Assembly (NCBI GenBank): GCA_947087275.1
Contig: CAMUBZ010000003.1
Coordinates: forward strand, 73,132-113,095
Source of the DNA: an uncultured Candidatus Saccharibacteria bacterium
GTDB taxonomy: Bacteria > Patescibacteriota > Saccharimonadia > Saccharimonadales > Saccharimonadaceae
DNA length: 39,964 nucleotides
Reading direction: 5' to 3'
In this document: positions 5,527 through 39,964 of the stretch, piece after piece
How the letters are laid out: the number at the start of each line of letters is the position of its first letter
How positions within the stretch are numbered: position 1 is the first letter of the stretch
Position numbers and translations under genes: made by a program
The notes under the pieces: model-generated
Seen by the model: the letters and a program-made list of their open reading frames with translations, nothing else
The model's database searches: none
What the model was told of the DNA's origin: nothing

Positions 5527-5736
5527 CTACATACCTAATACAGTACTAAGGCAGCGGAGGGGGAGACCTTGATAACGATTATATGGCCCGAGCGATGGAT
5601 AGACATTTGTCTCATTAAAATGAAGATAATAAGCATAATCAATAGTAGCAGCATATGAGGACCAATAGACAGCGGCACTGCCAGCATTCCGGAAGTTACC
5701 CACAGCATTAATAACATCAAAATGTCCGCTGCGCAC
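5527..5736 (-). pseudogene. Silent cassette A: C-terminal FISUMP-like domain fragment
   Basis: In minus-strand sense the cassette opens with the shared block GTGCGCAGCGG (5736-5726; V-R-S-G) and ends with the shared 35-nt block (5561-5527) encoding PLRCLSTVLGM and TAG. Between them are 69 codons with FISUMP/C-type-lectin-like landmarks: a G-x-F-R turn, AVYWSSYA, an AYYLHF strand and an NRYQG turn before the conserved Arg-Cys. The frame extends upstream to an accidental ATG (5817) through two hairpins, but I see neither a ribosome site, a promoter nor a signal peptide. It is therefore a promoterless 3' fragment rather than a normal gene. A short expressed peptide is the alternative. Confidence 0.75.
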
Positions 5737-6841: not shown

Positions 6842-7045
6842 GTGCGCAGCGGGTTTATCAATGCACATGATGGTACGTTTAGAAACGCTTTTGCATATGG
6901 AGCATGGTGGGCGTCACGTGCCAATACGACCGTTAATTATAGTTTTGCGGTTGATCTTAACTCAAATACTATAGATAATTCCGTAAGCGGTAACCGCTAT
7001 GGTGGACGCTCCCTCCGCTGCCTTAGTACTGTATTAGGTATGTAG
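6842..7045 (+). pseudogene. Silent cassette B: C-terminal FISUMP-like domain fragment
   Basis: The cassette begins at GTGCGCAGCGG (6842; V-R-S-G-F) and ends with the 35-nt block shared with A, C and D (7011-7045). It encodes 67 codons with the same landmarks (G-T-F-R, AWWASRA, NRYGG, LRCLSTVLGM) but a largely different interior. The frame is open upstream only to TAG at 6806-6808 and holds no ATG, signal peptide or ribosome site. After the stop the flank reads GGAGTGAGATG, a ribosome-site-plus-ATG pattern that recurs in a remnant near 17386. It points away from cassette A, across the XRE/DUF2975 pair. Confidence 0.75.
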
Positions 7046-7072
7046 GAGTGAGATGAAGATGCTGCGCCAGCT

Positions 7073-17323: not shown

Positions 17324-17385
17324 AGTAGAATTATACTGGAAAATCATGCATCTTACTAGTTCGTCCGATATTTGGCCCCATCTCC

Positions 17386-17405
17386 ATCTCACTCCTACAT
17401 AGCTA
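17386..17405 (-). repeat. Remnant of the cassette 3' flank
   Basis: On the minus strand TATGTAGGAGTGAGATG, and one mismatch later AGATG, matches the end and downstream flank of cassette B (7039-7061). The rest of the cassette 3' block is missing here. It appears to be a relic of a deleted cassette ~80 bp from cassette C. Confidence 0.55.
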
Positions 17406-17483
17406 CATCACTACGTTCTGTGGTATGGGTGTCGATTCGGGAGAAGGATGAAAGTTTGCTTCCATTCTTTTTTACTCCCCCTC

Positions 17484-17655
17484 CTACATACCTAATACAG
17501 TACTAAGGCAGCGGAGGGGGAAACCGAGATAGCGGAAGTTGTTGTTCGAAGAACTAACATTATTAGCAAAGTCAAGATAGTGGGAGTTGGTAGTATTGGA
17601 ATATCCATATGACGACCAATAGACACCAGAGATGCCAGCAAACCTTAATGAACCA
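17484..17655 (-). pseudogene. Silent cassette C: 5'-truncated FISUMP-like fragment
   Basis: The 3' block (17518-17484) is identical to A, B and D and encodes PLRCLSTVLGM. The interior reads GSLRFAGISGVYWSS and HYLDF, so it belongs to the same domain. The 5' block is missing: at ~17655-17670 the sequence runs straight into the 5' block of cassette D on the opposite strand. The frame happens to stay open to 17690 through D's antisense. Direct head-to-head joining with no spacer suggests a recombination junction. Confidence 0.72.
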
Positions 17656-17658
17656 ATT

Positions 17659-17868
17659 GTGCGCAGCGGGTGGTTTAGTATATATAACACGTCGGGGACT
17701 CTTAGATCCGTGGGACTATATAGTCAATCTTGGTCATCGCGTGCCTATTCTGCGGATAGCCTAGCTTATCATAGCGAATACAGTGATGAAAACCTTGATC
17801 CTTCCAATCTTGATATAAGGGCCGATGCTTTCCCCCTCCGCTGCCTTAGTACTGTATTAGGTATGTAG
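17659..17868 (+). pseudogene. Silent cassette D: C-terminal FISUMP-like domain fragment
   Basis: The cassette starts with GTGCGCAGCGGG (V-R-S-G-W-F) at 17659 and ends with the 35-nt shared block (17834-17868). Its 69 codons keep the landmarks G-T-L-R, SWSSRA and FPLRCLSTVLGM, but the interior differs strongly from A-C. The upstream open frame to 17632 is antisense of cassette C, so its ATG is fortuitous; there is no ribosome site, promoter or signal peptide. Confidence 0.75.
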
Positions 17869-17885
17869 GAGATGAGAGCAATTAT

Positions 17886-31768: not shown

Positions 31769-32449
31769 ATGAGCGAGCCAACCCCGCCGGACAAACTCGT
31801 TTTTCAGTCAAATATGCAAACTGCCAGCCAGAAGCCAACAGATTACTTTGCGGAGCAAAATCAGAAACAGGCAGAGAAAAAGCAAAAAACGAGCAAGATA
31901 CGTAAACGTATATTCCTAGTCGGAGGGCTTGTCGCGCTCATTATCATCGCCGTAGTGACAATTTTAGTTATCAATCATCAACAATCTGGGCCAGTAGTGT
32001 CGGATGACGCGGGCGCTGGAGATGGCACCGAAATCAGTGGTGGCAATTCACAACTGGCAGGCGTGCAAAAGTTAAACGAGCAGGTCACCGAAGTTTTTGA
32101 GCCAACCTATTCCGCCGACGAAAATGGTAACATTGTGGTGAGCGGTGATTTGGAGGCCGCCGAAGCAACCTTTGCTGCCGCCTTGGCAAACGCAGCCAAT
32201 CAACAGCGTATCGATACGATTTATGTGGCGCAAATTGTTTTTTATTCTTCCCTAAGTGATAATCAGCGAGTAGTGGGAATCGCCGAAAACGTCGACCCCA
32301 GTAAGTTAAATCTTTCCGAAAAGATCAAATTCTATAATTTAACTTACTTAGCTTATGCTGCACTGGGGGATACGAATCAAGCCAATCGTTACTATAATTT
32401 AACACGCGAAGCAGCAAGTAATACAAGCGGGATGGGAGATAGCTTATGA
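31769..32449 (+). CDS. Membrane-anchored extracytoplasmic protein, TPR-like
   Basis: I do not recognise a family. The 226 residues have a charged cytoplasmic N-terminus (~1-52, Lys/Gln-rich), one span (~53-72, VGGLVALIIIAVVTILVI), a Gly/Ser linker and an outer domain of paired helices (~115-220) that look like one or two tetratricopeptide repeats. AAGGAGG precedes ATG 31769 by 4 nt; an upstream in-frame GTG at 31748 is not supported. It overlaps the secreted-protein gene by 4 nt (ATGA) and so is probably its assembly or anchoring partner. Confidence 0.6.
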   Translation: MSEPTPPDKLVFQSNMQTASQKPTDYFAEQNQKQAEKKQKTSKIRKRIFLVGGLVALIIIAVVTILVINHQQSGPVVSDDAGAGDGTEISGGNSQLAGVQKLNEQVTEVFEPTYSADENGNIVVSGDLEAAEATFAAALANAANQQRIDTIYVAQIVFYSSLSDNQRVVGIAENVDPSKLNLSEKIKFYNLTYLAYAALGDTNQANRYYNLTREAASNTSGMGDSL

Positions 32450-35022
32450 AAAAACGTTTAGGGTTAGCAATGGTGGCACTGATAGCCTTAGTCGCGGCTT
32501 GTGTGTATTTATTGCCAGATGTGCAGCCAGCATATGCCGCTAATGGTGGCGACTCCAACGACAGCAATGTGGGCGGCTGTGGTGCAGCTGGGAAAAACTG
32601 TACAAGTTGGGGAATTACTTGGGTTAAGCAACCTCTAGATGAATTCTTGCAGTCGTCCGAACGCGTTGGCTTAACCAGCCAACAGAAGCAAGATATGATT
32701 AATGCCACTGCGGGAATGGCTGACCCCTATGTCTACCGCTTAGCCTACGTCGACTATGCCAATGGTGGCAAAATTCAGCTGGGTAGCGTCAGTGGTCTAA
32801 TTAGCAATGACCGCGCGGATCGCAATAATGCAGTTTATGTTGACCCGTCGTCGATTCCGGGCGGCATGTCTGCCGCTGAAGCGCAGGCACTGTTTGAATA
32901 CGCGCTGAGTATCGGCGTCGATATGCAATATAACTGGGATCAATTAGCAATTTTTGCCTTTGATGAGGCTTGGACAGATTGCGGAACAGATTCATCCTGT
33001 ATTCAACAAAAGATAGAGCAAAAAATCACTGAGCAGACTGAGAATGGTGACGGTAGCAGCGCCATGGCTTACTTTCAATCCAAGACCATTATTGATGTTG
33101 GAAATGGTATCCCCGAAGGACCACAAGATTCAGGTTGGGATGGGCATGTTGCGATTGAGTTTAGCACTGATGAGCCATCCGTGACTGTCAACTTTACGCA
33201 CACAATTGAGTATCAACCAAACGGTTTTAGCCTTGGAGGCAAAGACAAATTTACAACCAAAGCATCTGCAGGTGATATCTCAGCGGGGTCGGGCAAAACA
33301 GATGTAGCGGATACCGTCAATAACTATACGCCTTATAGTATCACAACAGGCGGCGGTGGCACTTTTGGCATCTTTACTACTAGTTCTGGCACTTCTACCT
33401 ATGGTACCACCCCACAAACGGTTTCACTCAGCCCAGGCGAGACGAAGACAGTTTGCAGCTACATTAATTACAGCAACAAATTTGCTAACATGAAGAGCAA
33501 GAAGCATATTGAAGTGCACTACAAGGCTGCAGATCCCGCCACGAATAGTCCTGCAGTTCCAGAAGATTCGCATTACGACTGGTATCTCAATAATTATTCT
33601 GGGTCGGGTAGTTCTGGGGCCTGCGCAACCATTACGCGTCCAGCTGACCCGTCCGGTGAGCCAGTTAATCCTAACTCCAGCGGATCCACAACCTCTGATA
33701 TTATGTTTGCTGGCGAAACTACTCAGCTGGAATGGGATTTGCACGGTAATACTTATGATGTACGGCGTCTTATGGAGCGCCAAATCACAGCGCATCTCGT
33801 GGATGTGTTGCCGGGACGTAGCGGACGTTTCTTTGATACCACTCCACGTTCGGCTAGTAGTCCTTACAACCATTATTCGGGCGCCAATATCGCGGCACGA
33901 CATAACTTTGGGGAAGAAGGCGCCAATCTTGACAATAGCCCCGATACTTATAGCAAAGCCTTCGGCGTAGTGGTGCCAGATTATGTAGGATACAAATATT
34001 GCCATACGGGTGGCTACCGCTATGAATCGTGGTACGCTATCAACGGTAACTGGAAGCATGACACGCGCACCGATAAGAATTATCGCAATTATTGGTATGT
34101 CTACAGTGCGTCCTGCCGCACAATCGCCAAGAAACCAACCATAGCGATTTGGAACGGGAGCGTTTTGACAGCAGGCGGCGTCACTACTTCAACCTCGCCA
34201 CGATTTGATAACGCCGTCATGGGCGCTAAGGTTGGTGAAGGCGGATCACGCACTTTGTACGGCTCATGGGTAGAATATTTGGCAGCCGTGGGCAAGAACG
34301 TGAATTACTTCACCTCTGGGTCAAGTTTGGCGATTGGCTCCAAAAATCTGTCCGCTCCGCAAAGCATTCCGTTGAGCACTGGTAATTCCCCGCTCACGAT
34401 TGCCAACAAGGATCGCCTGGGCAGTTCAGGAATTTATAATAATTCGACCTACCGCACACGCTTGACGACTTTTTTGGAAAATCAGGCTACGCCTTTGACA
34501 AGTGACACACTGGGCGCAATGAATAACGTATCCAACACACAAATCCTCACTCATAATGGCGATTTGAAGATTACGGGTAATATTACTACTAATCCTGGGG
34601 CATACAATAGCATTTACCATGTACCACAGGTTGTGATTTTTGTGCACGGTAACTTAGAAATCGCTAGCGACGTGACGCGAATTGACGCTTGGTTAATTGT
34701 TGACGGCAAGATTAACACCTGTAGCGATTTTACGTACGGCTCCACTGAAGCGGATGCGGTGAATCGTTTGCGCGATACGTGCAATAAGCAATTAGTTTTT
34801 AACGGCCCAGTGTTAGCTAACGGCTTGACGCTCAATCGCTCCTTTGGTTCTGATCCTTTGGTGACGCGCACGGGCACCTTTGGTGCACCACCGGCCAAAT
34901 ATAATGCTGGTGAAATCTTCAACTTGCGAATGGATACTTATCTGTGGGCTTACGCTCAGGCTGGACGTTATGCCTCCAGCTATACCGAAAGTTATTCCCG
35001 CGAATTAGCACCGCGTTATTAA
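32446..35022 (+). CDS. Large secreted surface protein, 858 aa
   Basis: A signal peptide is clear: MKKR, hydrophobic core ~5-24, cleavage about QPAYA/ANGG. The mature protein is Ser/Thr/Gly/Asn-rich with scattered Cys pairs, and has a beta-rich central region (~200-420) and a C-terminal region (~690-850) whose repeating polar/hydrophobic strands (VVIFVHGNLEIAS, WLIVDGKIN) look like a right-handed beta-helix. There is no LPxTG motif or C-terminal span, so the protein may attach through the TPR partner or be released. I know no family name. It overlaps ecfT by 4 nt tail-to-tail. Confidence 0.65.
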   Translation: MKKRLGLAMVALIALVAACVYLLPDVQPAYAANGGDSNDSNVGGCGAAGKNCTSWGITWVKQPLDEFLQSSERVGLTSQQKQDMINATAGMADPYVYRLAYVDYANGGKIQLGSVSGLISNDRADRNNAVYVDPSSIPGGMSAAEAQALFEYALSIGVDMQYNWDQLAIFAFDEAWTDCGTDSSCIQQKIEQKITEQTENGDGSSAMAYFQSKTIIDVGNGIPEGPQDSGWDGHVAIEFSTDEPSVTVNFTHTIEYQPNGFSLGGKDKFTTKASAGDISAGSGKTDVADTVNNYTPYSITTGGGGTFGIFTTSSGTSTYGTTPQTVSLSPGETKTVCSYINYSNKFANMKSKKHIEVHYKAADPATNSPAVPEDSHYDWYLNNYSGSGSSGACATITRPADPSGEPVNPNSSGSTTSDIMFAGETTQLEWDLHGNTYDVRRLMERQITAHLVDVLPGRSGRFFDTTPRSASSPYNHYSGANIAARHNFGEEGANLDNSPDTYSKAFGVVVPDYVGYKYCHTGGYRYESWYAINGNWKHDTRTDKNYRNYWYVYSASCRTIAKKPTIAIWNGSVLTAGGVTTSTSPRFDNAVMGAKVGEGGSRTLYGSWVEYLAAVGKNVNYFTSGSSLAIGSKNLSAPQSIPLSTGNSPLTIANKDRLGSSGIYNNSTYRTRLTTFLENQATPLTSDTLGAMNNVSNTQILTHNGDLKITGNITTNPGAYNSIYHVPQVVIFVHGNLEIASDVTRIDAWLIVDGKINTCSDFTYGSTEADAVNRLRDTCNKQLVFNGPVLANGLTLNRSFGSDPLVTRTGTFGAPPAKYNAGEIFNLRMDTYLWAYAQAGRYASSYTESYSRELAPRY

Positions 35023-39895: not shown

Positions 39896-39964
39896 TTACT
39901 CCTGCATATCTAATACAGTACTAAGGCAGCGGAGGGGGAGGCCACTCCAACGATTATACGGACC
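39896..39964 (-). pseudogene. Silent cassette E: partial FISUMP-like fragment at the right edge
   Basis: Only the last 22 codons are in view. They encode GPYNRWSGLPLRCLS then TVLDMQE and TAA. The 27-nt core shared by all five cassettes is at 39936-39910. Two changes remove the usual ending: GGT becomes GAT (Gly to Asp) and the TAG stop becomes CAG, so the frame runs on to TAA at 39898-39896. GPYNR matches cassette A closely. It lies directly behind the tRNA-Leu terminator. Confidence 0.72.

Follow-up and report, generated by a model that had tools for sequence, protein, structure and literature searches.

The perfect inverted repeat that seals a head-to-head pair of cassettes in this Saccharibacteria genome is probably part of a diversity-generating retroelement (DGR) system whose headless variable repeats (VRs) form a dispersed archive and would be swapped, whole and unmutated, with a full-length gene. 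The pair lies in a window of 39,964 nucleotides (the whole stretch of DNA that was analysed) in contig C3 of a genome of 829 kb and 15 contigs, hereafter G000, in which our reading of the sequence covered the stretches around cassettes. As the original prediction had stated, its two arms (17481-17523 on the minus strand, 17829-17871 on the plus strand) are exact reverse complements over 43 nt. The match extends no further on either side. The first is the 3' box of a cassette that we call C, with the coding end PLRCLSTVLGM, a stop and GGAG; the second is the 3' box of its partner, D. Since the arms are the common 3' box of a DGR VR, a perfect inverted repeat is to be expected wherever two cassettes face apart.

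A population of headless cassettes

The 20-nt core of the arm is present in 76 copies in G000 when up to 3 mismatches are allowed, against 0 for the reversed control. One of these copies is a stray (C4:16472), and 66 of the remainder carry a full cassette. The 43-bp arm of the window corresponds to the 38-40-nt box of nearly all cassettes plus a few extra matching bases. This 3' box, CCCCCTCCGCTGCCTTAGTACTGTATTAGGTATGTAGGAG, is nearly invariant in 74 copies, while the other end of the cassette is marked by a 5' box of 11 nt, GTGCGCAGCGG, fixed at nearly every base, silent sites included, in every one of the 66 full cassettes; conservation is lost within a few bases of its upstream edge. Between the boxes there are about 70 variable codons, VRSG...FPLRCLSTVLGM and a stop, that represent the C-terminal part of the FISUMP domain, and none of the 66 full cassettes has an internal stop. 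The cassettes have no start, no signal peptide and no N-terminal half, so that a single one cannot make a protein by itself.

Downstream of the cassettes, stems of at least 10 bp are found in 17 of 75 cases, mostly 9-12 nt past the stop, against 0 of 71 far upstream, although they could also be terminators. A repeat, GTATGGCTTATGGGAAAATAT...CATGCCTATGCTTGCTAA, lies behind several cassettes (C3:39582 on the minus strand; C5:17138, C11:21249 and C12:11082 on the plus strand). Several contigs of G000 end in or beside cassettes: at C2:60, at C4:62161, at C10:37153, and in the window itself, where the 3' part of a VR-type cassette (39902-39964, minus strand) is cut by the end of C3 at position 113095 of the contig, which is also the end of the window. 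Two pairs of these ends have a cassette tail in common; the archive thus disrupts assembly from short reads.

Every named relative that we found is a Candidatus Saccharibacteria MAG, and none was found in viral contigs. In the same genus, the cassette profile has one or more matches in 59 of 60 genomes, only 1-30 in most of them and 58-100 in a few; the genomes G060 to G064 have 74-148 each, all of these counts including templates and the VRs of full-length genes.

Descent from a DGR

That the cassettes descend from a DGR is well supported by their pattern of variation in relatives. The test of origin was run in two genomes with one template each, where differences from the template were counted at adenines and elsewhere: 466 of 1030 against 488 of 3046 in G072 (p=3.5e-75), and 261 of 488 against 281 of 1804 in G062 (p=3.9e-61). 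Differences lying mainly at template adenines mark the scattered cassettes as DGR variable repeats. The freshest cassettes of these relatives are changed at 0.8-5% of non-adenine positions and at 19-60% of adenines. Across the test, non-adenine change ranges from 1% to 45%, a spread of ages that is not a random sample, the tested cassettes being among the best profile hits.

In G000 the signal is faint. Compared with the 12 templates of this genome, the window cassettes show no significant adenine bias (p of 0.17, 0.20 and 0.60); the bias is significant for 5 of 66 cassettes taken singly, all of which lie outside the window, and the pooled adenine excess is small (0.46 vs 0.38), with the choice of the best of 12 templates favouring an excess. 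The window cassettes are old. Between D and its homologue at C2:52340, with which it is 86% identical, 17 of 20 coding changes are transitions, so these differences look like ordinary drift.

The machinery itself is present. An intact reverse transcriptase (RT) frame of 428 aa with the motif YVDD (C1:973-2256, minus strand) is 73% identical to the RT beside the template of G072, its assignment to the DGR type being by sequence similarity. Beside it stands a putative accessory gene of 333 aa (C1:973-3178 for the two together), with equivalents in relatives and no Pfam or NCBIfam match. The 12 template-type cassettes of G000 share the 5' box of the other cassettes, close at the 3' side with another sequence, ...GTGCCGATCTTT, and contain more Asn codons (15.7% vs 6.8%); an Asn-rich template also lies beside the RT in G072, G062, G085 and G063. 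We considered, and rejected, the loss of the genome's own DGR: PF00078 found no RT in G000 or G061, but a query with the RT protein of G072 recovered intact frames in both. Having missed intact DGR RTs in two genomes, a negative with PF00078 is not evidence of absence here. Separately, contig C8 of G060 carries a second RT, with YRDD (L268:1999-3504), which is not of the DGR kind and is possibly a defence RT.

Identical copies and the full-length gene

A VR stands at the 3' end of a full-length FISUMP gene in two relatives, G061 and G085. In G061 (a single MAG, in which a strain mixture could mimic copies) this gene lies beside infB, and its VR and a headless cassette on another contig (C4:11265-11463) are 100% identical along 199 bp, with unrelated flanks and with the borders of identity at the cassette edges. 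A further locus of the same genome, C11:27798-28184, repeats the last third of the FISUMP gene, being identical over 132 nt to the left of the VR and over at least 315 nt to its right, with a different VR between them; this VR, VR_A, has its own headless twin at C2:30760-30960, identical over 201 bp. At a third locus (C2:18525) the same left part is followed by yet another VR. The C11 locus may be an old state of the gene that was copied out, a donor, or a strain variant within the MAG. Such exact headless matches to the end of a full-length gene, seen in a relative, suggest a genome-wide library of spare protein tips.

G000 itself contains four pairs of cassettes that are identical from the 5' box to the 3' box and have unrelated flanks. 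Since identical copies of this kind bear no new adenine changes, the mutating RT is probably not their source. No mosaics of unlike cassettes were found in G000, where such cassettes have no common stretch of at least 24 nt. These comparisons point to cassettes that are exchanged whole and without mutation with the full-length gene; the direction and the function of this exchange are inferred. In three near-identical duplicates of G000 (C2:60721/C2:84730, C2:113207/C9:25772 and C3:53146/C12:11082), the only differences lie in the final codons ahead of the 3' box, which gives the impression that a short patch on this side was rewritten. Drifted duplicates carry 20.5 synonymous and 18.5 other changes, more synonymous than neutral in a test pooled over five pairs, mostly two (p=0.002); the excess fits selection on the coding sequence.

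The synonymous excess bears on an alternative that we consider unlikely, namely that the cassettes are by-products, VR copies spilled to ectopic sites by retrohoming or recombination and decaying there without function. The wide range of ages (1% to 45% non-adenine change), the existence of truncated and fused copies, C included, and the lack of start and head are all compatible with it. Yet spilled copies would have to account for 66 full cassettes without an internal stop, for stereotyped spacers and pair layout, for the retention of large numbers of cassettes in several compact genomes, and for VRs in an expression context that are identical to headless twins, besides the synonymous changes themselves.

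Classical silent-cassette gene conversion of the vls or pilS type, with no living DGR and the present one a relic, is distinctly unlikely: the RT and accessory frames are intact in G000, the Asn-rich templates have been kept, relatives hold fresh adenine-mutated cassettes, and mosaics are missing from G000, even if exact, unmutated copies of whole cassettes and the little adenine bias in this genome are points in its favour.

A DGR with an archive swapped with the full-length gene continues to be, in our judgement, the probable reading, and the expected place of that gene in G000 can be indicated. Contig C13 breaks off within a FISUMP gene that immediately follows infB, before the expected VRSG start is reached, and in three other MAGs (L119, L121 and L122) the same infB-linked FISUMP gene also stops at a contig end. 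A repeated or variable continuation would explain these ends, which do not amount to proof of it; the assembly of G000 contains no full-length gene that ends in a VR box. A cassette pair is adjoined by a FISUMP gene of 416 aa with a dissimilar C-terminus (L072:164-1414; C2:107248 in G000), and both this gene and one on C6 (L089) have the 3' flank seen behind cassettes. On the question of a C-type lectin fold, the AlphaFold model of the FISUMP variable protein is of low confidence (mean pLDDT 38), and no relative in the PDB was found by sequence.

Comparison with known systems and a possible mechanism

DGRs in CPR bacteria, DGRs with multiple VRs and silent-cassette systems are already known. 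The system described here resembles the DGRs of Patescibacteria/CPR (RT clade 2; Roux et al., 2021, PMC8144416) in its RT with a putative accessory gene, Asn-rich template repeat, C-terminal VR, adenine-specific variation and occurrence in CPR, but it differs from them in that tens to more than 100 VRs lie outside any target gene as headless fragments, and in that a single genome holds 12 templates. Genomes with several templates and numerous VRs are also on record in the portion of the multi-VR DGR survey drawn upon here (Yan et al., 2019, PMC6642488), according to which several target genes are present in 86.7% of multi-VR systems and 11.3% carry several VRs within a single target gene; the example that has 91 pairs is atypical and shows few A-to-N changes. 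That portion makes no mention of headless VR archives arranged as head-to-head pairs.

The layout of the cassettes follows the pattern of the BPP-1 DGR target (Guo et al., 2011, PMC3240598), in which a 3' IMH is followed just downstream by a hairpin with variable stem sequence, upstream sequence is dispensable, and a short identity suffices for integration at the 5' side. It departs from BPP-1 in that a long perfect stem is present in only 17 of 75 cassettes and the loops are not GRNA. With a 3' box, a 5' box and, in those 17 of 75, a stem that match this target plan, each cassette could be a homing target. The 3' box lies outside the template's own end, so new sites would need a source of the box, which the copying of existing cassettes could provide. 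As in the vls system of Lyme Borrelia (PMC11499132) and pilE/pilS of Neisseria, many promoterless cassettes match part of an exported protein, here being homologous to part of a full-length gene; vls, however, is a contiguous array with segmental conversion, whereas our cassettes are scattered, their transfers are of whole cassettes, their variation is RT-derived, and unlike cassettes in G000 show no segmental (mosaic) transfer.

Taken one step further, these comparisons lead us to propose, tentatively and with slightly less than an even chance of being right, a DGR with memory, in which adenine-targeted retrohoming fills and refreshes a genome-wide library of headless VRs and a separate, non-mutagenic exchange moves whole cassettes in and out of one expressed surface-protein gene, which would let the cell keep good variants and recall them later. 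In the reading that we consider probable, the RT would write adenine-mutated copies into cassettes, with the 3' box as homing site (IMH) and the 5' box providing the short identity for the other end. Whole unmutated cassettes would then pass between silent sites and the 3' end of the full-length exported FISUMP gene beside infB, so that the cell could keep tips of surface proteins in store or swap them. In the window, D would be a complete archived cassette, and C a partner cut back at the 5' box of D, in the usual outward layout.

A DGR overwrites its target, and a useful variant is gone at the next round. A dispersed store of VRs would solve this loss, and would link two classes of diversity systems that are treated separately. 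Should the protein prove to be an adhesin, there may also be consequences for the way in which host-dependent Saccharibacteria retain or exchange their partners. A search among open-licence papers yielded no description of a DGR that keeps headless VRs in a dispersed store, and nothing on FISUMP or Saccharibacteria with gene conversion.

Outward pairs and the pair in the window

Neighbouring cassettes tend to point away from each other: within 1.1 kb, 23 of 30 neighbours face outward (p=4e-9 against an expectation of one in four), a cut-off picked after the list had been seen, with which cut-offs up to 5 kb agree. In G000 the distances from 5' box to 5' box fall into classes of 14-16, about 84-92, about 118-151 and about 216 nt; the classes in G060 are 14-16, 84 and 119-129 nt. 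Spacer sequences recur. The 7-mer GCAGCGG is seen at both cassette ends, in inverted orientation. One might see in the over-represented outward pairs with inverted ends, in the recurrent spacer families and in this 7-mer a transposon- or MITE-like element, with the 43-bp arms as terminal inverted repeats and the coding content incidental. We regard this as highly improbable, given that many cassettes are single and that they contain an open FISUMP C-terminus whose variation in relatives is targeted to adenines.

Cassette D (17659-17868, plus strand) is a full headless VR-type cassette of 69 codons and a stop, with the 5' box GTGCGCAGCGG (VRSG) at 17659-17669. Cassette C (variable part at 17524-17656, minus strand; open frame GSLRFAGISGVYWSSYGYSNTTNSHYLDFANNVSSSNNNFRYLGF) is truncated at its 5' side, lacks the 5' (VRSG) box, and matches the cassette profile from position 11 only. 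Its coding part (GSLRFAGISG...) ends 0-3 nt from the 5' box of D, which bears out the claim that C is cut there with no spacer. Behind C, the 3' flank (17379-17480, minus strand) contains an imperfect hairpin region, a CGAATCGAC motif and what is left of the end of a second box (CTATGTAGGAGTGAG), an order that is repeated behind other cassettes. The remnant of a further 3' flank that had been noticed here is real, 17379-17414 being 83% complementary to another cassette's 3' end and flank at 7026-7061.

The pair had been read as a product of recombination between inverted cassettes. The part of this reading in which C is a cassette cut back at the 5' box of D fits the sequence; its uniqueness does not hold, outward pairs being the rule (23/30). 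A one-off recombination between inverted cassettes, able to invert, is hardly credible: the cut in C fits it, but the outward pair is the general layout, and no sign of inversion, or of a cruciform extruded by the arms, was seen. With no spacer and a shortened C, the window pair is a worn member of that layout. By eye, a second pair of G000 (C1:33814-34020, L061; cassettes at 33814 on the minus and 34001 on the plus strand) is fused even more tightly, at the 7-mer GCAGCGG, one cassette having shrunk to its 3' box and being fused to the 5' box of the next.

Comparison with sister genomes, which the original prediction had proposed, reveals that the pair is not conserved. In G060, the nearest relative found, the interval from tRNA-Gln to a histidine kinase (75% identical) has no cassette and holds an epimerase-like gene instead, so the pair was gained in one lineage or lost in the other.

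Elsewhere in the window, positions 32446-35022 encode an 858-aa protein without any Pfam match. The best open example of a full VR-type cassette in the window lies at 5527-5736 (minus strand; weak match to TIGR02145, E 0.0031), and a second VR-type cassette, at 6842-7048 on the plus strand, faces away from it, with a 192-aa gene between the two.
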